Below are positions 1,882 through 62,792 of a stretch of 64,000 nucleotides of DNA, one piece after another. A program made the translations under genes and the position numbers. Origin of the DNA: Flaviflexus ciconiae (GTDB lineage Bacteria > Actinomycetota > Actinomycetes > Actinomycetales > Actinomycetaceae); assembly GCF_003971195.1 (NCBI RefSeq), contig NZ_CP034593.1:496001-560000 (forward strand), in the 5' to 3' direction. The number at the start of each line of letters is the position of its first letter. Positions within the stretch are counted from its first letter, which is position 1. A model generated the notes under the pieces. The model made no database searches. It was given only the letters and a program-made list of their open reading frames with translations, and had not been told where the DNA came from.

Positions 1882-2145
1882 TTAGCTGTCTTCGCGTCCG
1901 GGCCGTCCGGCCTCACGGTCGCGGAAGTTCTTCTGGTCGTACTCGCCACGATCATCCGGATCGGGCTCAGTATCCTTCTTCTGCTCGACGTACGGCTCCT
2001 GGTCGTATTCGCCGCCGTGTCCAACACGCCCCTCCTCATGGGTCGGTGCCGGCTCGTAAGCGGGATCGTCGGCATGTGGGGAGAGGGGATTGTAGGGCGC
2101 ATTCTCCTCAGGATGCTCTGATTCCTTGCTGTGCTTGTCATTCAT
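1882..2145 (-). CDS. Small hydrophilic acidic protein of unknown function
   Basis: An 87-residue protein that I do not recognise. It is made almost entirely of charged and polar residues plus proline and glycine, with no hydrophobic segment, so it is probably soluble and disordered. The short motif GEYDQ occurs twice (about residues 45 and 68). The start is supported by GGAGAG six nt before the ATG, and the stop is followed by a strong hairpin terminator, so this looks like a real single-gene unit. It lies at the edge of the paralog array on the same strand but shares no sequence with the array proteins. Confidence 0.7.
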   Translation of the reverse strand: MNDKHSKESEHPEENAPYNPLSPHADDPAYEPAPTHEEGRVGHGGEYDQEPYVEQKKDTEPDPDDRGEYDQKNFRDREAGRPGREDS

Positions 2146-2543: not shown

Positions 2544-3248
2544 TTAGAGGGTTCCGGCCTCGGTGCCACACTGCGTCGCAATGTCGGAGAGAGTGTCAAC
2601 CGAGTGCGAATCATAAACGTCGTTGCCAGCCGAGATCGACTCGATGGCCTCAGGGCTAAGGCGCTGGAGCGACTCATCGGTGACGCATTCCAGGTACATG
2701 TTCCACTGGTCCTCGGAGATGCCCTGAGCTTCCGCCGTCTCCTGGGTGAGACCAGTCTGTTCGAGGATGTCCTCCATGCCCTGGCGGAATGCTGCCGGAT
2801 CGGCATTCGGATCACCGTATTGCTGATCATCGCCACCGTCAGTGCCGTCGGTGAGGGAATCCTCAGTCTCGTCGGTGCCGTCGGTGAACGGATCGTCGGT
2901 GTCAGTATCGTCCGTGTCGGTCGTCTGCTCCGTCGTGGTCTGATCGCCGTCGTTTGAATCGTCATCATCGTCGCCAGCGAAGACGAAGAAGTAAAGAAGG
3001 GCGCCTGCTACGAGGAGAATGACAACGACTGCGGCAATAATGATACCGGTCTTGTTGCCGTCACCCTGCTGAGGAGGCTGGCCGTACGGACCGGGAGCTC
3101 CGTAGCCTTGGTCGTAAGGTGCATTGCCGTACTGTCCCGGCGCTCCGTAGCCAGCGGGCTGTCCGGAGGGAGCTGACGGGGGCTGCTGGCCCTGCCAGTT
3201 GCCCTGGCCGCCATGAGGATTTCCGTAGTTGTCGTTCCCTGTGGTCAT
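2544..3248 (-). CDS. Array protein 1: Q/G/P/Y-rich tail, one TM helix, two-cysteine outer domain
   Basis: A 234-residue single-pass membrane protein of a family I do not recognise. Residues 1-65 are a low-complexity Gly/Gln/Pro/Tyr tract that begins MTTGNDN. Residues 70-95 are a hydrophobic helix (GIIIAAVVVILLVAGALLYF). An Asp/Thr/Glu-rich stalk with runs of acidic residues follows, then a C-terminal domain of about 85 residues with two cysteines (YLECVTDE and TQCGTE). By charge, the N-tail should be cytoplasmic and the C-domain outside. The start was set at 3248 because AGGTGA precedes it and MTTGN is shared with the other copies. It is the most divergent copy in the C-domain, lacking the RPSK and TLEAIA motifs. 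Confidence 0.85.
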   Translation of the reverse strand: MTTGNDNYGNPHGGQGNWQGQQPPSAPSGQPAGYGAPGQYGNAPYDQGYGAPGPYGQPPQQGDGNKTGIIIAAVVVILLVAGALLYFFVFAGDDDDDSNDGDQTTTEQTTDTDDTDTDDPFTDGTDETEDSLTDGTDGGDDQQYGDPNADPAAFRQGMEDILEQTGLTQETAEAQGISEDQWNMYLECVTDESLQRLSPEAIESISAGNDVYDSHSVDTLSDIATQCGTEAGTL

Positions 3249-3324
3249 AGTTTCACCTCGTACGGACTGGAATAGTGCGAAGACTAGGCTGTCCGCCATA
3301 TCTGTGATTCGGTGTACGCGTAAC

Positions 3325-3330
3325 AACTTA
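3325..3330 (-). promoter_or_regulatory. Promoter box of array gene 1 (-10-like TAAGTT)
   Basis: TAAGTT on the minus strand, 77 nt before the ATG, preceded by CTCGGTGC. All five array genes have a similar TAnnTT hexamer (TAAGTT, TAGGTT, TAAGTT, TAGTTT, TAAATT) 65-77 nt upstream. That placing suggests a shared -10 and a 5' leader of about 55-65 nt. Confidence 0.5.
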
Positions 3331-3567
3331 GCACCGAGAGTTCATGCAGTGATAGCAGATCGTAGGGGTGTATTCCCCAGGCCCAACCAGCGGAAACGCC
3401 CTGATGCGCTTGACTCCACGGCTAGGCCGCACTCCCTGATCGTTGCCGAGCAGCGTTGCCAACCCGTGGTTGGGAATGATGGATCTCTAGGAAGACGCTC
3501 CTTGCCTGCCTTACCGGGGTAGAGGAATGCACTTGAGACGGACGGACCAGTCCGGAACGAGAAGAGG

Positions 3568-3591
3568 GGCGGGACGCGGTCGCGTCCTGCC
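3568..3591 (-). terminator. Terminator of array gene 2
   Basis: GC-rich hairpin GGCGGGACGC / GCGTCCTGCC (one G-T pair) with a tight loop, 25 bp beyond the stop of the broken copy. The 240 bp between here and the array gene 1 promoter hold nothing recognisable. Confidence 0.75.
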
Positions 3592-3616
3592 ACTCAAGCA
3601 AATTGATGCGGATTGC

Positions 3617-4392
3617 TTACAGGAGTTCACCCATGCACTGGTTTGTGGCTTCGCCCATTACAATCATGTCCTGCTCATTGGTTGCAACATTCGGGTCACG
3701 GTTAGCCAGCGCTTCCTGGGTCTCAATCGAGACATCATCGTAAATGTTGTCGACAATGCAGGTGATATAGCTATCGATCTGTTCGCGGGTCCTGCCGGCT
3801 TCCGCGAGCTCTTCTTCGCTAATGCCTTCCTGGTACATCATGTCTGAGAAACTCTCGGTAACCTCTTGCTTAGACGGACGACCGTCACCGCCACCCTGGC
3901 CACCGCTGTCCGGCCCCGGTGCAACGTTCGGCCCCTGACCGCCGATCGGTCCCTGATTCTGGCTTGTGCCGTTAGGGCTCTCATCACCGTCGTCGTCCCC
4001 ACCGAGCGTTAGCACGAGCACGACAGCGACGATAACGACAACCGCAGCAATGACACCGCCGATGATCCACCCAGTCTTCATAGACTTCTGGGGAGGTATA
4101 CCGTACTGGTAGCCACCCTGTCCGTAGCCTTGTGGAGCACCGTAGCCCTGCTGAGGGTGTTGGCCCTGCTGCGGGGCATATTCTGTTGCTGAGGGGCATA
4201 GCCATGCTGCTGGGACGGTTGCTGACCGTAACCAGGCTGATTAGCCGACTGTGCTTGCGGCGCTTGCTGACCATAACTCGGCTGGTTAGCCGACTGTGCT
4301 TGCGGCGCTTGCTGACCATAGCCCGCCTGATGAGCCGACTGGCCCTGTGGCGGCTGCTGGTTGCCGGGTTCGCTATTGTTTCCAGTTGTTAT
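3617..4392 (-). pseudogene. Array gene 2, broken: start codon ATA and a frameshift
   Basis: Same architecture as its neighbours, but damaged twice. At the conserved start the sequence after AAGGGTCATC reads ATA ACA ACT GGA, where the other copies have ATG; the ribosome site is still present. The Q-rich tail contains an imperfect 15-residue repeat (QAPQAQSANQP). The frame then fails near 4190, where CAGCAACAGAATATGCC is one base short of a frame that continues as YAPQQGQHPQQGYG. The rest, from the membrane helix ([20 protein letters not shown]) to the two cysteines (YITCIVDN, NQCMGEL), is intact in one frame to 3617. An internal ATG at 4081 (MKTGWIIGG) could still yield a 154-residue membrane protein without the tail. 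The intact promoter box and terminator argue for recent damage. Confidence 0.8.
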
Positions 4393-4456
4393 GATGACCC
4401 TTATCAGTTGGGGCTCAGGCGGATGCTCCGAACCGTCGTCAATCTTTCTAGGCACA

Positions 4457-4462
4457 AACCTA
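4457..4462 (-). promoter_or_regulatory. Promoter box of array gene 2 (TAGGTT)
   Basis: TAGGTT preceded by GAACACGCTGT, 65 nt before the ATA that replaces the start codon. The preceding bases resemble those of array gene 3 (GAACACTGT before TAAGTT). Confidence 0.5.
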
Positions 4463-4649
4463 ACAGCGTGTTCACGTGCTGTGGTGAAAATGCGTGGGGT
4501 GAACAACCCAAGCGACCCCGCCTGAAGGGAGGTCAGTGCCGAACACAACCGCCTTATGACCCTTGGGCATTTCCAGAGATGTTTCAGCGGTGACCGGGTT
4601 TCGAGTAATTCCTTGGGTTTGCTGATTGAGGGAACTGCGGAAAACAGAA

Positions 4650-4689
4650 GGGTGGCTGACACGCGGAATCACCCGCATATCAGCCACCC
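4650..4689 (-). terminator. Terminator of array gene 3
   Basis: 10-bp stem GGGTGGCTGA / TCAGCCACCC with an inner GCGG/CCGC stem, 13 bp beyond the stop. The same arm sequence (GGGTGGCTG) recurs in the terminator of array gene 4, which suggests that duplication carried the terminator along. Confidence 0.88.
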
Positions 4690-4701
4690 AGCTGCGTTGA
4701 A

Positions 4702-5478
4702 TTAGTATCCGAGTTCGGAAAGGCAGGCGTTGGCCGCATTGTTGAACGTGGACTCCTCGCCAGCGGGCATGGGTGCGTTCGGGTTGTTGGCTGCAATGGC
4801 CTCAAGCGTATCGACCGAGACCTCGTCGTAGATTTCGTCGACAACGCAATCGAAGTAGGCATCCACTGCATCAGCATCAACGCCGAGGCTGGAGAGCTCG
4901 TCCTTACCTAGGCCCTGATCTTCAAGCATCGATTCCATGCCTGAAAGGACCTCGTCCTTGGAAGGACGACCATCGGAACCACCTTCATCATCGCCTCCGA
5001 GGACGAAGAAGAGGACAACGCCGACAATGACGAGGAGAGCGACAATGACGCCGCCAATAATCCACCCGTTCTTGTTCGACTTCTGCGGAGGATAGCCGCC
5101 GGGCTGACCCGGGTATCCGTAACCCTGGTTGCCGTAAGCCGGGGTAGCACCGTATCCCTGGGGAGCTCCGTAACCCTGCCGGGCGCCCTGTGGCGCGCCA
5201 TAGCCCTGCTGCTGGGCCTCGTAGCCCTGCGGTGCGCCATAGCCAGGCTGACCGCCCTGCGGGCTACCGTAGTTCTGGTCTGCGCCATATCCCTCGGGTG
5301 TGCCGTAGCCCTGCTGAGCACCGTAACCTTCCGGTGCGCCTTGTGGCTGGTTCGGCTGCGGCAGATCACTCGGTGACTGCTGCCCGGGGTCTGGCTGGCC
5401 CTGGCCGTAGTTCGGCTGGTCCTGACCATTATTTGGCTGGTTCTGTCCCCAGCGCTGATTGTTGTTTCCCGTGGTCAT
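4702..5478 (-). CDS. Array protein 3: Q/G/P/Y-rich tail, one TM helix, two-cysteine outer domain
   Basis: A 258-residue protein and the best preserved long-tail member. Residues 1-130 are low complexity with many copies of [13 protein letters not shown] units (also [10 protein letters not shown]). A conserved [14 protein letters not shown] junction leads into a membrane helix at about 137-160, and [10 protein letters not shown] forms a short acidic stalk. The C-terminal domain of about 85 residues starts [11 protein letters not shown] and carries [27 protein letters not shown] and a second cysteine in NACLSELGY. The two cysteines are about 45 residues apart and invariant in the family, so a disulfide outside the membrane is likely. 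The ATG is preceded by AAGGGAG. Tyr/Gln/Gly tracts like this can phase-separate or bind proline-recognising partners, but no function is known to me. Confidence 0.88.
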
Positions 5479-5545
5479 GATCTCCCTTATCGAAGTCTGC
5501 GGCTATGGCACTTATGCCAGGTTTTCCAACGAATGTACTGCCACT

Positions 5546-5551
5546 AACTTA
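5546..5551 (-). promoter_or_regulatory. Promoter box of array gene 3 (TAAGTT)
   Basis: TAAGTT preceded by CGAACACTGT, 68 nt before the ATG. Downstream, GTGGCAGTACATTCGTTGG resembles the leader of array gene 4 (GGTGCCAGCACATTCGTCC), so part of the 5' leader is conserved too. The leader can also form TGGCA-TAAG-TGCCA near 5503-5516. The remaining 5552-5752 holds nothing else I can name. Confidence 0.5.
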
Positions 5552-5781
5552 ACAGTGTTCGACTGACGTTTGGGCGTCCCGTCCACGGACAATTTGCTAC
5601 GTTAACCGGTGGTTAAGATGCGTTGCGGGATGACATGCGACGAGAGGGTGTGCGGACGGCTTCGTCCCTAGTTGATGAGGAATGAACGGTCCTTGGCTGA
5701 GAACCTTGTAGGGCGGTGTGGATGACCACGGTAGGTTCTTGTGACAGAGAGGAGGGTGGCTGGCGTACGGATTGCTCCATG

Positions 5782-5805
5782 TGATTCGGCCTGGGTTTAG
5801 TTCCG
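5782..5805. repeat. IS left inverted repeat
   Basis: 24 bp, TGATTCGGCCTGGG...TTCCG, identical to the reverse complement of 7067-7090. It is flanked outside by the duplicated ATG at 5779-5781. Confidence 0.95.
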
Positions 5806-5818
5806 GCCGTTTTTCCTG

Positions 5819-6730
5819 TCACCGGACTGGTGTCAGGCGGGATTCTTGTTCAGTGTAGTAGGCGTCCTCGACCTCGAGCGGGCTGCGGTAGCCAAGTTCA
5901 CCGTGGAGGCGTTTGTTGTTCCACCACCACACGTATTCCAAGGTTGCCAGCTCAACTTCTTCCACGGTCTTCCACGGCCCGCGCTGACGAATCAGTTCGG
6001 CCTTGTAGAGAGCATTAACCGATTCAGCCATCGCGTTGTCAAAACTATCGCCGACGGTCCCGGTAGAGGGCTTAGCGCCGAGTTCATTGACCCTGCTCGT
6101 GTAGACCAGGGACATGTAGTTCGAGCCGTGATCGCTATGATGGATCACTCCATCAAGGTCACCGCCGTTTTGCCAGGCAGCCATCTCCAAAGCTTGCAGT
6201 GGCAGCACGTCAGCTTTCAATGTCGAGGCAACATTCCAGCCGGCGATACGACGAGCGAAGACGTCGATGATGAAAGAGACGTAGGCGAACCCGGACCAGG
6301 TGGCGACATAGGTGATGTCGCAGACCCACAATTGGTTAGGTCGGTCAGCAACAAACCGGCGCTCCACCAGGTCCCCGGGCAGCGCTAAGCCGGAATCAGG
6401 GATCGTGGTGAAAGCCTTCTTCGACCTGCGAACACCTTCAACGTCGGCGAGTTTCATGAGCCTGTGGGTCTGATCGCGGCCGATGTCCCAGCCCTGTCGT
6501 TTCAGGAGCGCATGCATCTTGCGTCGTCCGTAGACGCTGTAATGCTCTTCGTGCAGGCGCTGGATTTCTGGGATCAGCAGCTCGTCTTTCAGCTGACGGG
6601 CTGACGGGGGCCGGCTCTTCGCGGCACGGTATCCACGAGAGGTGATAAATCCACGGACTGCTCCACGAAGCGTGGCGCAGAGGAACTCAACTCCGAAACG
6701 ATCACGATAAGTATCGATGAAAGCGATCAT
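5819..6730 (-). CDS. IS3-family transposase OrfB (DDE integrase core)
   Basis: The catalytic part of the transposase, 303 residues. An HTH_21-like segment (SARQLKDELLIPEIQRLHEE) is followed by the rve integrase core. The catalytic triad is visible as D138 (VCDITYV), D200 (HHSDHGS) and E236 (NAMAESVNALYKAE), with the 35-residue D-E spacing usual for IS3. It overlaps the end of OrfA by ATGA (6727-6730) in the -1 frame. OrfB could thus be made by translational re-initiation, or as an OrfAB fusion by -1 frameshifting as in other IS3 elements. Full length with no stops. Confidence 0.95.
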   Translation of the reverse strand: MIAFIDTYRDRFGVEFLCATLRGAVRGFITSRGYRAAKSRPPSARQLKDELLIPEIQRLHEEHYSVYGRRKMHALLKRQGWDIGRDQTHRLMKLADVEGVRRSKKAFTTIPDSGLALPGDLVERRFVADRPNQLWVCDITYVATWSGFAYVSFIIDVFARRIAGWNVASTLKADVLPLQALEMAAWQNGGDLDGVIHHSDHGSNYMSLVYTSRVNELGAKPSTGTVGDSFDNAMAESVNALYKAELIRQRGPWKTVEEVELATLEYVWWWNNKRLHGELGYRSPLEVEDAYYTEQESRLTPVR

Positions 6731-7041
6731 TTCGTCCGTGGCCGGTCGAGTTCCTTCGCGAAAAATATACTCGCAGCTTTAAGCACCTCGTTAGCCTTGC
6801 GCAGCTCAGCGTTCTCACGCTCCAGTCGTTTATTCTCTGCGACTAAGTCGGTCGTCACGCCGGGCCTTTTACCTTGGTCGACTTCGGCCTGCCGGTGCCA
6901 GGTTCGCAGGGCCTCTGCGCCTACCCCGAGCAGGTCCGCGACATGACGGACCGCGGCTGTGCGAGTGGGGTGATCGGGAAGTGCCTCGGAAACCATCCGC
7001 ACCGCACGCTGCTTCAGTTCGGGGTCATACTTTCTGGGCAT
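6727..7041 (-). CDS. IS3-family transposase OrfA (DNA-binding)
   Basis: A 104-residue protein with an N-terminal helix-turn-helix that binds the IS ends (RKYDPELKQRAVRMV, then VADLLGVGAEALRTWHRQAEVD). A leucine-zipper-like heptad stretch follows (LVAENKRLERENAELRKANEVL), and it ends in the typical FFAKELDRP. The sequence closely parallels IS6110 OrfA. It ends in the ATGA overlap with OrfB. Confidence 0.94.
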   Translation of the reverse strand: MPRKYDPELKQRAVRMVSEALPDHPTRTAAVRHVADLLGVGAEALRTWHRQAEVDQGKRPGVTTDLVAENKRLERENAELRKANEVLKAASIFFAKELDRPRTK

Positions 7042-7066
7042 AGTGTTCCTATTCTGCTATAAAGCT

Positions 7067-7090
7067 CGGAACTAAACCCAGGCCGAATCA
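7067..7090. repeat. IS right inverted repeat
   Basis: 24 bp, the exact reverse complement of 5782-5805, followed by the target duplication ATG at 7091-7093. Confidence 0.95.
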
Positions 7091-7127
7091 ATGCGCCAGC
7101 CACCCTGTCAGTTAGCTTGTGGCTTGT

Positions 7128-7892
7128 TTAGAATTCGAGTTCAACCAAGCAGGAGTCGACTGCCGTGGTGAATGTCGTCTGCTCACCGGGAGCCATCGGA
7201 GCATTCGGGTCGTTCGATGCGATTGCCTCGAGTGTCTCGGCCGAAACGTCGTCGTAGATTTCATCGACAACGCAGGAGAAGTAGGAGTCAACGACGTCCC
7301 CCTCAAGGCCCATGGCGATGAGATCATCCCGGCCTGCGCCCTGGTCGGCGAGCATGGCCTCCATGCCGGAAAGGACCTCCTCCTTGGAAGGACGATCGCC
7401 GGAAGGCGTGTCGGAGGTTTGCGTGTCAGGTTCCGTGGGGTCCGGCTCCACGGGTGTCGGAGTGGTGGGAACCGGTGTCGTCGGGCTTGGGTCGATCGGA
7501 GCTGGCTCAACGGGTGAGGGCTCGTCCGTAATGGGCTCGGTCGGATCCGGATCGGCAGGCTGGGTTGTTTCGGTGTCGGTCCTGGTATCCGTGTCATCGT
7601 CATCGTCACCGAGGACGAAGAAGAGGACGACACCGACCGCGATGAGAATAACGGCGATGATTCCGCCAATGATCCACCCGGTCTTGTTGGACTTCTGCGG
7701 GGGATAGCCACCGGGCTGGCCCTGGTAACCGTAACCCGGGTCTCCGTAGCCCTGAGGTGCGCCATAACCCTGTGGCTGGCCGTAACCCGGAGCACCATAG
7801 CCCGGGTTACCCTGGGGCGGGTGGCTCGGGGGCCGCTGTCCGTAGTTGGGCTGATTCTGTCCCCAGCCCTGATTATTGTTCCCGGTTGTCAT
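7128..7892 (-). CDS. Array protein 4: G/Q/Y-rich tail, TM helix, long Pro/Thr stalk, two-cysteine outer domain
   Basis: A 254-residue protein. Residues 1-66 are a Gly/Gln/Tyr/Pro tail ([19 protein letters not shown], then [20 protein letters not shown]). The PPQKSNKTGWIIGG junction and a membrane helix lie at about 67-95. It differs from array protein 3 in having a stalk of about 75 residues made of Pro, Thr, Asp and Glu (PSPVEPAPIDPSPTTPVPT), which looks like a wall-spanning spacer. The C-domain ([51 protein letters not shown]) is the closest match to array protein 3. The start is preceded by AAGGGAC. It has its own promoter box and an IS-split terminator. Confidence 0.88.
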   Translation of the reverse strand: MTTGNNNQGWGQNQPNYGQRPPSHPPQGNPGYGAPGYGQPQGYGAPQGYGDPGYGYQGQPGGYPPQKSNKTGWIIGGIIAVILIAVGVVLFFVLGDDDDDTDTRTDTETTQPADPDPTEPITDEPSPVEPAPIDPSPTTPVPTTPTPVEPDPTEPDTQTSDTPSGDRPSKEEVLSGMEAMLADQGAGRDDLIAMGLEGDVVDSYFSCVVDEIYDDVSAETLEAIASNDPNAPMAPGEQTTFTTAVDSCLVELEF

Positions 7893-7961
7893 GATGTCCC
7901 TTAAATGTATTCCGTGGCTTTAGCGGTGGTGCGAGCCTTGTGGACGAATGTGCTGGCACCC

Positions 7962-7967
7962 AAACTA
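7962..7967 (-). promoter_or_regulatory. Promoter box of array gene 4 (TAGTTT)
   Basis: TAGTTT preceded by AACCGCTGT, 70 nt before the ATG. The CTGT immediately before the hexamer is shared with array genes 2 and 3. Confidence 0.5.
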
Positions 7968-8103
7968 ACAGCGGTTTTTACTTGGTTGGTCTCGTTGCCT
8001 GGGGTGAAGTTCCCAAGGTGGCTCGATGGTGTCCGGTTGTGGCCGGTAGCGATGCTTTCAGGAAGCGTGAATGTAGCGCGAGAGCGCTGGTAGTTGTATC
8101 AAT

Positions 8104-8141
8104 GTCCAGGTCAGGCGGTTGATAGGCAGCCTGACCTGGAC
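8104..8141 (-). terminator. Terminator of array gene 5
   Basis: Perfect 13-bp stem GTCCAGGTCAGGC / GCCTGACCTGGAC with a 12-nt loop, 64 bp beyond the stop. Confidence 0.85.
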
Positions 8142-8205
8142 CCGGCTCGGGGATGCTGGGGGAGCGGATATCGATACTCCGGGGCGGACTCCCCACTCTG
8201 GATAG

Positions 8206-9045
8206 CTACAGCTGAGAGTCGATGCACGAATCCGATGCTTCGGTCAGCAAGGTGTAATCGGAGCCGAAGATCCACGCATCGGGGTCGCCCGCGACAATAG
8301 CCTCGAGAGTTTGGGGACGAGCCGCGTCGTAGATGCTGTCGATTACGCAGTTGTAATACTCGTCCATCGATACACCTGCGGCTTCAATGTCCGCCATCTC
8401 CAGACCCTGGTTTTCGAACTCTGCTTGGAGGATGAGCTCGAGGCCGACACGTACGTCTGCGCGACTGGGTTTGCCGTCGGGGCCGGGACTGCTGTCCGCG
8501 GGGTCCATCGTGGGATTGCTGTCGACCGTTGTGGGATTCTGGTCAGGAGAATCGGTTCCCTGACCGCTTCGGTTGTCGACGGTATCGCTCGGAGCACCCG
8601 AGATGTCGGAGCCTGCGGTGCGATCGTCGTCTCCACCGAGCACAAAGAAGATCGCTGCACCGGTTGCGAGGATCGCGACGATGACGATGCCGAGGATAAT
8701 CCAGGCCGTGGCGTTTGAGTTGTGGGGCGGCTCGTTATTCGGCGCTGAGCCGTAGGCCTGTCCGTAAGGTTGCTGACCGTACGACTGGTTGCCAAACCCT
8801 TGCTGTGCTCCGGATGGCTGCGGGCCGTAGGGCGACTGTTGTTGCTCGTACGGATTCCCGGCGAGCAAGCCACCGTCATCCGGATTCGAGGCAGACTGTC
8901 CCTGGTCATGGTTCTGGAAGGTACCGGGCTGCTGGTGGAAGCTCTGATCGTAGCCGGGCTGCTGGTGGAAGCCCTGATCGTAGCCGGGCTGCTGGCCATG
9001 GTGTTGGCCCTGCCCCCAGAACTCGTTATTGTTCCCCGTGGTCAT
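8206..9045 (-). CDS. Array protein 5: Q/H/G-rich tail, TM helix, stalk, two-cysteine outer domain
   Basis: A 279-residue protein. The low-complexity tail (about 1-110) includes three near-identical Gln/His units (GYDQGFHQQPGYDQSFHQQP). A membrane helix (AWIILGIVIVAILATGAAIFF) lies at about 117-137 and is followed by a Ser/Asp/Pro stalk. The C-domain (KPSRADVRVGLELIL, YYNCVIDSIYDAAR, TLEAIVAGDPDAW, SDSCIDSQL) keeps both cysteines. It lacks the PPQKSNK junction of copies 3 and 4 and is an early-diverged member. The start MTTGNNN is shared, with AGAGAAAACA upstream as a weak ribosome site. It is first in the array in the direction of transcription. Confidence 0.85.
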   Translation of the reverse strand: MTTGNNNEFWGQGQHHGQQPGYDQGFHQQPGYDQSFHQQPGTFQNHDQGQSASNPDDGGLLAGNPYEQQQSPYGPQPSGAQQGFGNQSYGQQPYGQAYGSAPNNEPPHNSNATAWIILGIVIVAILATGAAIFFVLGGDDDRTAGSDISGAPSDTVDNRSGQGTDSPDQNPTTVDSNPTMDPADSSPGPDGKPSRADVRVGLELILQAEFENQGLEMADIEAAGVSMDEYYNCVIDSIYDAARPQTLEAIVAGDPDAWIFGSDYTLLTEASDSCIDSQL

Positions 9046-9110: not shown

Positions 9111-9116
9111 AATTTA
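9111..9116 (-). promoter_or_regulatory. Promoter box of array gene 5 (TAAATT)
   Basis: TAAATT preceded by GTGCACGGT, 66 nt before the ATG. Same position as in the other copies. Confidence 0.45.
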
Positions 9117-9633
9117 ACCGTGCACTCCCACCGAATAGCCAGGATCGCGAGGGTGAGTATTCCAACGTGCATTGAGAAATAGAGATTTCTCTGCGCAGAA
9201 TTCGGTGGGTCTCTTGAAGCATATCCACCGAAGTGGCTTGTTACCGCCGTAAACATCGTGCGCCATTGGGCTTGATACTGCTACTATCGCGGCACTTTTC
9301 GGAGCACGGTTGTCCTGTTGAACTTGCCACAATGCGATAAGTCGCAGCGGCTCTGGCTCGGCTGGGCATTTGACCGAAGCAAGATCTGGACCGCGGGGTT
9401 TGACGTAGCATTTCGGCCCACCTGCAACGGCGGCAAATTTGGTTAAGAGAGCGTACCGGGTGCCGGATTACTGTCAGTTGCTATGGCACTACCGATAACA
9501 CTGCTGTGGTGAATGGACTGTGGGAACCGAGAGCCGCCGGGCTTTGTGACCGGGTGCAAGCCGTCGGTCACGAGGAGCGACAGTTCGACATGAGCTACGT
9601 GTAGAGATAGAGATCAGGATTGTGTAGAGACGA
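9117..9633. other. Gene-free stretch, about 515 bp
   Basis: The longest gene-poor gap in the window. I see no supportable frame, RNA gene or mobile-element ends. Base composition is lower in GC than the flanking genes (for example 9158-9215). It lies just upstream of the first array gene and could hold regulatory sites for it, or decayed sequence. Confidence 0.4.
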
Positions 9634-60189: not shown

Positions 60190-61404
60190 ATGTCGAAGAA
60201 ACAAGCAGTGTGGGCGATCGCCGCGAGCGCAGTCGTCCTCTCCGCGTGCTCGGGCGGCAATGACCCGGAGCCGACCGTCACGGTGACTGCGGAAACGGTT
60301 GCGCCTTCGACTGACCCCGAGGTCCCCTCAGACTTTAGGGACGACGCTACTCGTGCTTCGCTCGACTTCGCGATAACAGTGGTGGACGAGAGAAGGCAGG
60401 AGGGCGGCAATGCCGTTGTGTCACCAGCTTCGATCAGCTATTCGATGGTGATCGCGGGAACCGGTGCGGTCTGCACGAATGAGGAAGCGTTGGTGAGTGC
60501 CTTGGGAGTACCCGCTGAAGAGCGGGAAAACACCTACCTGTCTCTCGCAGCTGACCTGGCTGGGCGAGAAGAGGCCGATTATGCGACACGGCTCTCCGGG
60601 CTGATTCTGTCGAATTCGACGACGGGACGTGCCGACAACGAAGCACTGTCGGATCTCGCGGAACGCTACTCCCTATCCCATATGACGGTCCCTGAGAGCG
60701 AGATCGGGATAACGGCTGACATGTGGGCCCTGGATGCTTCGGACGGTCGTCGCGATGGTTTGGCGGCACCGCTGTCGGCTTCTGCCGACTATTCAGTTCT
60801 ACTCAATCTTTCTTACTGGAGTACGTGGAGCGCGAGTGCAGACGTGACAACCCTGGACTTCGAGTTTGAGGACGGCAGGCGGGAGCCGGTTCCGGCTCTG
60901 GAGTTGCCGGCCCTGGCTTGGGAGGCGGATAGTGGCACGATCCTCGAGCTTCCCACCACATCACCCGACAGCACCTATCTGTACTATCCGGATGTTGCAG
61001 GAACTCTTGGGGATCTGACGGCCGACGATTGGGCAATTCCCGGCGAGGGCCAGGAGGTTGTGTTGACCGTCCCGACCCTTTCCGCAAGTGTGACAACCAA
61101 CGTTGAAAATCTTGGGGACCAATCGTTTCTCGCCTCCGGTTGCGAGAATCCTGGCTTTGGAGCTTCGGCCGAAGGAAGCCTTGCCAGCCAGCATGCTTCC
61201 TACGAGTTCGGGGTGGACGGAATCGCAGCCGATCACGTGGGCGATGTGGTGGAGCCGGGGAGAGAAACGACCACACCAGATAGGCCTGGGACGAATGCGA
61301 AGATCATTGCGGTGGACCGCGCTTTTGCTGTCATGACGGTCGATGAGGAAACTGGATGGGCGATTCTCTACGGAATGATCGGTGACCCGACGGTGCGGAA
61401 CTAG
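60190..61404 (+). CDS. Serpin-like lipoprotein 1
   Basis: 404 residues. Lipoprotein signal with lipobox VLSAC (C20), then a Thr/Glu/Pro linker. The body has serpin marks: SPASISYSMVIAGTGAVCTNEEAL near residue 78, and the C-terminal strand set VDRAFAVMTVDEETGWAILYGMIGDP. The reactive-loop hinge is degenerate (FGVDGIAADHVGDVVEPG, with few of the small residues needed for loop insertion), so protease inhibition is doubtful. It also lacks a clear WV..T.G motif. Anchored outside the membrane. Followed after 158 bp by a paralog. Confidence 0.8.
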   Translation: MSKKQAVWAIAASAVVLSACSGGNDPEPTVTVTAETVAPSTDPEVPSDFRDDATRASLDFAITVVDERRQEGGNAVVSPASISYSMVIAGTGAVCTNEEALVSALGVPAEERENTYLSLAADLAGREEADYATRLSGLILSNSTTGRADNEALSDLAERYSLSHMTVPESEIGITADMWALDASDGRRDGLAAPLSASADYSVLLNLSYWSTWSASADVTTLDFEFEDGRREPVPALELPALAWEADSGTILELPTTSPDSTYLYYPDVAGTLGDLTADDWAIPGEGQEVVLTVPTLSASVTTNVENLGDQSFLASGCENPGFGASAEGSLASQHASYEFGVDGIAADHVGDVVEPGRETTTPDRPGTNAKIIAVDRAFAVMTVDEETGWAILYGMIGDPTVRN

Positions 61405-61562
61405 ATCGCATCGAGGTCGCAACAACAAATCGCGCCGGTAGCAATGCCGTAAGTCGGCATACCTCACGTCAAAAGCAGACCCGTTGGGCGTGCAAGCACC
61501 GTGCTTGGACAATGCATGGGCGCGGCACCAGCAGACGAGATCGACCGAAAAGGAACGAGCAG

Positions 61563-62792
61563 ATGATGAAGAAGACAGTACTGGCAACGGCACTGTTGCT
61601 GACCATTGCCGCATGTGGCACCTCGGCAGACGAACCCGAAGGCGAGGAGACAACGACGCCGGATAGCGAAACCAGTCACGTTGTCACCGATGAAGAGTAC
61701 GAGCGGGCAACCGATGCCTCGCTGGAATCTTCGATTGACGTCCTGCGGGCGCAAGACGCAGACAACGGCCTCATTTCACCTGCGTCGCTCAGCTATGCGT
61801 TGGCAATGGCGGGGGAGGGCGCCCAGTGCGAGACACTCACCGAAATCAACGAATTCCTGGGCGTGGAGGACGGCTCGCGGTCGACGATCTATCCGGGTCT
61901 TTTGCGGCCTGCCAATAAGAGCGGCGAGGAATACGTGACGGGGTTCAGCGCTGCCGTTGCACACAATACGGGGGTGCCCGATACGAGGCTGGACGTTCTC
62001 GAGAATGTTGCCGAATCCTATGATGCGGACCTGTTCTCGGACTCTCTCACCAATCTCCAGCCTGCCCTTGACTCGTGGGTTGAGGAGTCAACCGGCGGCC
62101 TCCAAACCCAGCTACCAGTTCCGCTACCCGAAAATACTGCGACGGGTTTCATCACCGCCATGCACTACGAGACCGAATGGCAGGGTGATGCGACGAAGAC
62201 GACGTTCGAGTTCACCAGCTCAGATGGTCAGGTGGAAGATGTGCGCGGAGTTTACCTGCCGGGAAACGTTACTGCCCGGGAGGCGGACCGCGGCACGATC
62301 CTGGAACTGCCAACGGACTCACCCGATACAACCTACGTGTTCTACCCGGATGAAGTCATCGATCCCGCCGACCTGACCGCCGATGACTGGGACCTGGAGG
62401 ACGCCGGAGAGCCTACGGATGTGCACCTGCGTATTCCCGCGGTTGACTTCGACTCCCAAACCGATGTCCTTAAGTACAAGGATGATATTGGCTTACCGAA
62501 CATCGACGCGAAGGAAGAAGGTTGTGGCCTGGCTGGATTCTCGAAGTCGGAGCAGCATTCGGTTGAGATCGTTGTTCAGAAAGCAACGTTCAAGCTTGAC
62601 GATGAGGGGATTGCCGCCTCGGCCGTCACCGAAATTATCGGCGAGGCAGGTGCTGCACCGGGCCAGGAAGAGCCCGTTATCATCAACGTTGACCGACCCT
62701 ACGCCGTCCTCACCGTCTCCGAAGACACCGACTGGGCACTCATGTACGCCACTATCACCGACCCCGGTGCGATCACCCCCGCCATGTACTGA
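61563..62792 (+). CDS. Serpin-like lipoprotein 2, with an intact hinge
   Basis: 409 residues, lipobox LTIAAC (C18). Serpin signatures: ISPASLSYALAMAGEGAQCETL (about 71-92), LDSWVEESTGGLQTQL (169-184), FITAMHYETEW (196-206), and a C-terminal VDRPYAVLTVSEDTDWALMY (377-396). The hinge DEGIAASAVTEI (347-358) keeps the small residues that allow loop insertion, so this copy could be an active protease inhibitor; the scissile bond would fall around GEAGAAPGQEEP (360-371). Two cysteines in the body (C89, C321) could form a disulfide. GGAACGAG stands before the ATG pair. Confidence 0.85.
   Translation: MMKKTVLATALLLTIAACGTSADEPEGEETTTPDSETSHVVTDEEYERATDASLESSIDVLRAQDADNGLISPASLSYALAMAGEGAQCETLTEINEFLGVEDGSRSTIYPGLLRPANKSGEEYVTGFSAAVAHNTGVPDTRLDVLENVAESYDADLFSDSLTNLQPALDSWVEESTGGLQTQLPVPLPENTATGFITAMHYETEWQGDATKTTFEFTSSDGQVEDVRGVYLPGNVTAREADRGTILELPTDSPDTTYVFYPDEVIDPADLTADDWDLEDAGEPTDVHLRIPAVDFDSQTDVLKYKDDIGLPNIDAKEEGCGLAGFSKSEQHSVEIVVQKATFKLDDEGIAASAVTEIIGEAGAAPGQEEPVIINVDRPYAVLTVSEDTDWALMYATITDPGAITPAMY

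Follow-up and report, generated by a model that had tools for sequence, protein, structure and literature searches.

Modular surface-type proteins of Flaviflexus share a two-cysteine head domain carried on lipid and helix anchors

The stretch of DNA analysed here (the window; 64,000 nt) comprises bases 496001-560000 of a single-contig 2.83 Mb Flaviflexus genome (Actinomycetaceae). Between ctaD-ctaF on the plus strand and sodA-qcrB-qcrA-qcrC on the minus strand, it holds an array of five consecutive minus-strand paralogs, w1 to w5, within positions 2544-9045. The members w1, w3, w4 and w5 share one layout: a Gly/Pro/Gln/Tyr tail of 68-139 residues, a 19-residue hydrophobic segment, a stalk, and a C-terminal domain of about 91 residues, hereafter the head. 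As far as tested, this head constitutes a new exported domain family that has no model in the libraries searched. The array and its associated elements are as follows.

2544..3248, minus strand: w1 (234 amino acids); MTTGN tail, helix, acidic stalk and head (~2544-2831), with a conserved orthologue in four other Flaviflexus genomes
3325..3370 (before w1), 4457-4501 (before w2), 7962-8006 (before w4) and 9111-9155 (before w5), minus strand: CACCC-N-TADDTT promoter-like element
3617..4392, minus strand: w2; reading frame open at 3617-4081 across helix, stalk and head (the last at 3617-3898), with the tail in another frame; looks broken
4650..4689, minus strand: terminator-like hairpin after w3, 18 pairs
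4702..5478, minus strand: w3 (258 amino acids); long tail, helix, 8-residue stalk and head (4702-4980)
5782..7090, minus strand: insertion sequence (IS) 3-type element with 24-nt perfect inverted ends and transposase frames at 5819-6730 and 6727-7041
7128..7892, minus strand: w4 (254 amino acids); tail, helix, 70-residue Pro/Thr stalk and head (7128-7406)
8206..9045, minus strand: w5 (279 amino acids); tail with 30-bp repeats, helix, stalk and head (8206-8505)

A first-pass annotation, made from the sequence alone, had described five tandem paralogs with a shared MTTGN start, a low-complexity tail, one membrane helix and a variable stalk, and this anatomy largely held. All five copies are present, with the MTTGN start in four of them; w2 has ATA rather than ATG at the corresponding position (4390-4392), and its tail frame fails to join that of helix and head, so that the open stretch with a start codon is confined to 3617-4081. 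Gly, Gln, Pro and Tyr make up 53-70% of the four intact tails, and Gln plus Asn 24-30%, a figure of composition only for the putative 'prion-like' character proposed earlier. Tails, stalks and repeat units do vary as claimed: stalk lengths run from 8 (w3) to 70 residues (w4), and the tail DNA contains tandem repeat units of 45 bp in w2, 18-21 bp in w3, 18 bp in w4 and 30 bp in w5, with none listed for w1.

The membrane helix was assigned from hydropathy and charge. A single segment of high hydrophobicity (Kyte-Doolittle mean 2.86-3.36 over 19 residues; 2.86-3.20 for the same segment in w1, w3, w4 and w5 alone) is present in each of w1-w5, in agreement with the one helix proposed earlier, and none of the five carries an N-terminal signal with a lipobox cysteine. 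In 12 of 14 helix-tail members the flank preceding the helix has a more positive net charge than the one following it; in the two exceptions the 19-residue segment had been wrongly placed (mean 1.27 and 0.98). A full-length AlphaFold2 model of w3 shows a disordered tail and a helix at 136-151, at a confidence so low (block means 39-51) that it neither proves nor refutes a membrane helix. The tail is not specific to the head: among 36 w3 matches, all tested, four contain the head, and 18 of the other 32 carry PF10110/PF25231. Such actinobacterial tail-plus-helix proteins thus resemble the array in their low-complexity tail but generally lack its head.

The head is defined by two conserved cysteines around a C..D..YD..S core. 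Both are invariant in all eight heads of this genome, confirming the two-cysteine C-domain of the first-pass annotation. With the w3 head as sole query, the other seven match at E values of 1.3e-35 to 3.7e-7, a likeness beyond chance. That the domain is 'kept', as had been claimed, is true of its length and its cysteines but not of its sequence: w3 and w4 heads are 62% identical, w3 and w1 only 28%. In a non-redundant set of 84 of the 146 domain matches (below 70% identity, 55 or more columns), Cys occupies the first of the two positions in 83, the exception's cysteine being displaced by the alignment, and the second in all 80 heads that reach it, the three further rows ending earlier. The next most conserved well-filled columns are Gly14 (88%), Ser55 (83%), Asp75 and Ser7 (81% each), Asp52 (79%) and Asp48 (77%). 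AlphaFold2 predicts five helices (predicted local distance difference test, pLDDT, 89.5; predicted template modelling score, pTM, 0.75) and places the cysteines, which are 41 residues apart and form no CxxC motif, in helices 3 and 5.

Profile scans retrieved no listed match at cut-off for the head, either in Pfam (five window proteins, 12 members and eight relatives) or in NCBIfam (five window proteins and 25 heads). In the 12-member Pfam and 25-head NCBIfam tables, which give cut-offs for the first member only, the best E values among the remaining members are 7.3e-05 and 0.0034, for one member each. DUF732 (PF05305), a mycobacterial domain that like the head is small, exported and has two cysteines, is absent from the Pfam match lists (E up to 5 for the five window proteins, up to 1 for the 12 members and eight relatives). 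A PDB sequence search gave no relative (best E 0.038, a designed repeat protein), comparison of the head model with known folds returned no significant match, and none of 62 matches to viral folds reached E<=0.001. The family thus stands as unrecognised, as far as tested. The titles and abstract openings listed for Flaviflexus, family-like descriptions, Tad plus lipoprotein, the supercomplex and locus names do not describe it either; within these literature searches and profile scans, the head family is undescribed. Three sets of matches outside the head were set aside. Those to NCBIfam GltJ (best 7.6e-10; 38.5 bits against a cut-off of 450) and PADLOC PD-T4-6 (best 2.4e-09) lie almost entirely over tail, helix and stalk and were read as composition matches, and those to PHROGs (3.2e-4 and 5.6e-4, one protein each) fall in helix and stalk or in a lipoprotein signal.

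Three further heads are encoded in the same genome, on lipoproteins at 1553-1555 kb (G000:C1) between trpS and glgE, with LAAC or AAGC lipoboxes; the same locus carries head lipoproteins in genomes G051, G062 and G021. All six genus genomes searched contain the head (8, 3, 2, 11, 3 and 6 matches per genome). In wider samples it is patchy, being present in 18 of 61 genomes of a family sample, in 15 of 394 of a class sample (9 of 394 with a narrower profile) and in 4 of 296 of a phylum sample; the latter two samples include the window genome, and the broader profile used for them holds rows from several matching genomes, which therefore match by construction. Named relatives occur in Flaviflexus species, other Actinomycetaceae, Trueperella pecoris and Aeromicrobium. 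Outside the genus, 33 of the 35 family open reading frames (ORFs) read begin with a lipobox-like start; of the two exceptions, one lies beside masked bases and the other (L083) combines a signal with a C-terminal helix. A class-level member, L069, is by inspection a multi-helix protein. The unnamed 'hypothetical protein' lipoproteins of Flaviflexus, Trueperella pecoris and Aeromicrobium sp. Leaf350 bear the same head with both cysteines and belong to the same family, yet differ from the array in having a lipid anchor and no Gly/Pro/Gln/Tyr tail.

Directly after ctaF, several genus genomes encode a short protein in which a hydrophobic N-terminal stretch precedes the head (L035 8698-9054, L057 6405-6794, L060 5038-5421 and L061 6377-6778, minus strand), which the tree resolves as one orthologous group. 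This short protein was not found in the window genome. Between ctaF and w1, a site occupied by a small head protein in several other genomes of the genus, the window contains an 87-residue, very acidic low-complexity ORF (1882-2145, minus strand).

How heads relate to anchors was read from a tree of 33 genus heads, in which 12 of 30 inner branches are starred. Starred clades unite w1 with its four orthologues, w3 with w4, and lp3 with G062_l4. The helix-anchored protein G062_e is nested on starred branches among lipoprotein heads of its own genome, where its head is 68% identical to that of lipoprotein l6 and 27% to that of w1. A single clade of all helix-tail heads is rejected (approximately unbiased test, p-AU 0.0004, two long rows having been removed beforehand), as is a group of w3, w4 and G062_e, named after the tree was seen (p-AU 0.008). 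Heads have thus switched anchor type, lipid or helix, on no fewer than two occasions. A tandem neighbour in F. massiliensis (L059 4235-5467) aligns with G062_e across the tail, helix and stalk regions (59% identity, 210 of 355 columns) and ends in another cysteine-rich repeat in place of the head, an exchange of the C-terminal domain. L059 4235-5467 and 5875-7086 share this repeat, LYDACGGGDMAACD, one carrying two copies and the other one copy followed by the head; the repeat has no Pfam match.

Comparison of ten w1 orthologue pairs contrasts head with stalk and tail. Head alignments are gap-free in all ten (66-86% identity), while stalks share 22-60% identity with 3-29 gap columns and tails 41-80% with 10-51. 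In two metagenomic w1 alleles, for which the cut was placed five residues later, stalks of 8 and 72 residues replace the 56 of the window copy, with heads 99-100% identical. Over nine pairs, the ratio of nonsynonymous to synonymous substitution rates (dN/dS) of the head, a rough measure at these synonymous distances, is 0.04-0.25: 0.04-0.12 for four w1 pairs, 0.09 for one pair of ctaF-adjacent small copies, 0.24 for lp3 orthologues and 0.23-0.25 for three paralogue pairs. Orthologous heads are thus under purifying selection, and no sign of diversifying selection on heads was found in these ratios, dS being high. The proposed 'diversification with a fixed head' holds in part: orthologous heads are conserved, whereas paralogous ones differ widely.

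We consider an exported, non-enzymatic binding head on exchangeable anchors the most likely explanation (probability about 0.6). The head would be a small five-helix module that is very probably clipped by one disulfide between helices 3 and 5. It would lie outside the membrane, held by a lipid anchor, as is usual outside the genus, or by the Flaviflexus N-terminal helix with its disordered Gly/Pro/Gln/Tyr tail in the cytoplasm, and the stalk would set its distance from the membrane. The lipoprotein paralogs that bear the same head, the charge bias and the stalk-length alleles of w1 all support placing the head outside, on a stalk of variable length. The family would grow through tandem duplication, with heads recombining onto other anchors; w1 would keep one conserved role, and w2-w5 and the lipoproteins would be lineage-specific variants. 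Since no catalytic signature can be seen beyond the two cysteines, non-enzymatic binding of an envelope partner is the most probable function. The analysis demonstrates the anatomy, the conserved cysteines, the exchange of anchors, the orthology and purifying selection of w1-type heads and the lack of known relatives; the disulfide, the topology and the binding role are inferred. Of the 'fixed sensing or binding head' put forward earlier, nothing was found that speaks for sensing; the observation in the first-pass annotation was partly confirmed and its interpretation partly supported. Several points weigh against our reading. Binding is deduced by elimination and not from a ligand or partner; the distribution across the family sample is patchy; dS of 0.88-2.77 makes the dN/dS ratios rough; and one of the ten w1 pairs, window against G062, shows higher identity in the tail (80%) than in the head (73%).

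The genomic setting offers two alternatives. Members sit between ctaF and sodA-qcrB-qcrA-qcrC in the window genome, G051, G061, G062 and G063, and G021 agrees, with the region split over two contigs. This placement within the gene cluster of the cytochrome bcc-aa3 supercomplex would suit w1 as a factor that assists or assembles this complex. According to PMC8795186, known supercomplexes include additional subunits that differ between clades, some with a lipid anchor (P29/LpqE, P20/PRSAF1 and ThiX are extra subunits named there). As portrayed there, these resemble the head family in being exported, clade-specific and in part lipid-anchored, and w1 lies in the corresponding gene region, the likeness being one of traits and gene position. 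Yet the head occurs without bcc in 15 genomes: of the 58 non-genus genomes in the family sample, 15 carry the head but not qcrB, 14 carry qcrB but not the head, 29 lack both, and no genome combines the two (Fisher p 0.012, uncorrected for kinship). Because the two never co-occur there, we set a supercomplex subunit aside as the general role and regard it as unlikely for w1.

Outside the genus, head lipoproteins adjoin the Tad-pilus operon (CpaE/TadA) in eight of 12 genomes examined, spanning four genera; these 12 were drawn from 15 head-bearing genomes (G024, G037 and G047 left out), and G016, G017, G026 and G054 have no pilus-side head. In L041, L042, L043, L045, L046, L079, L081 and L084 the junction reads CpaE/TadA, head lipoprotein(s), a protein with an STPTDPY-like start that has no Pfam match, and usually an alpha/beta hydrolase. 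Heads could accordingly be partners of the Tad/Flp pilus, serving anchoring, adhesion or assembly at its outer face, given their place between the divergent CpaE/TadA and a conserved protein upstream of the hydrolase. Their transcription, however, runs in the direction leading away from the pilus genes, other members of the family are found at different loci, and the window genome has the same pilus locus without a head; we consider this role improbable. Taken together, the context points to the envelope rather than to a single machine.

The array might instead be a variable surface coat of decoys or receptors changed under phage, predator or host pressure. The 2-11 matches per genus genome, the broken w2, the stalk-length alleles and the exchange of heads would fit; the low head dN/dS, with no sign of diversifying selection, and the retention of w1 in five of six genus genomes make it quite unlikely. 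A cassette family in which the same disulfide-clipped head passes between lipid anchors and helix anchors, the latter having cytoplasmic tails that form condensates, such that binding outside clusters tails inside and w1 thereby organises the respiratory-chain membrane region, is highly speculative. Least plausible is a redox or metal switch, the head sensing and signalling through the tail: the conserved cysteines, the acidic residues conserved at 48 and 52 on the same helix and the adjacent superoxide dismutase gene would suit it, but outside the genus the head mostly occurs in lipoproteins, which have no portion in the cytoplasm, and cysteines 41 residues apart without CxxC look structural.

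Upstream of the array genes, the promoter-like element separates CACCC from TADDTT by 33-36 bases. The pattern has seven matches in the window against 0.29 expected, four being the sites before w1, w2, w4 and w5; since it was derived from those sites, this count describes rather than tests the element. No exact CACCC-N33/34-TADDTT match lies upstream of w3. The element also precedes two helix-tail genes of G062 and is absent from the lipoprotein locus L009 and from L035 of G051. A near-palindrome search of the genome returned 21 places against six for a reversed control; a -10-like box accompanies only two of the 20 inspected, before w1 and w4 (L103 left out). No common regulator or regulon emerged from either search.

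The IS3-type element interrupts the array between w3 and w4. Around it, 5753-5773 and 7086-7106 form an 86% complementary inverted repeat resembling the terminator hairpin after w3, and the element seems to have landed in the w4 terminator. Elsewhere in the window, 60190-61404 and 61512-62792 (plus strand) encode two neighbouring serpin-like proteins that begin in the manner of lipoproteins (Pfam Serpin, E 6.2e-6, just below cut-off, and 1.4e-26, respectively). Among gene names used in annotating these genomes, qcrA, qcrB, qcrC, glgX and trpS reached NCBIfam cut-offs, and Pfam models were matched at cut-off by ctaF and glgE; NCBIfam matches stay below cut-off for sodA, crp and ctaD, the last truncated by the edge of the window; trpD, nth, CpaE and TadB-like names, beyond their Pfam matches, are labels we presume to apply.

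The array thus consists of modular surface proteins, a known kind, bearing a head without a named relative. The head family is of value for its clear signature, for a confidently predicted structure that lacks a solved relative, for its recurrence in two genomic contexts and for documented anchor exchange. Entry points to the partner of the head are offered by w1, the one conserved orthologue, and by the lipoproteins encoded beside the pilus operon, and the family would matter far more should that partner belong to respiration or to pili.

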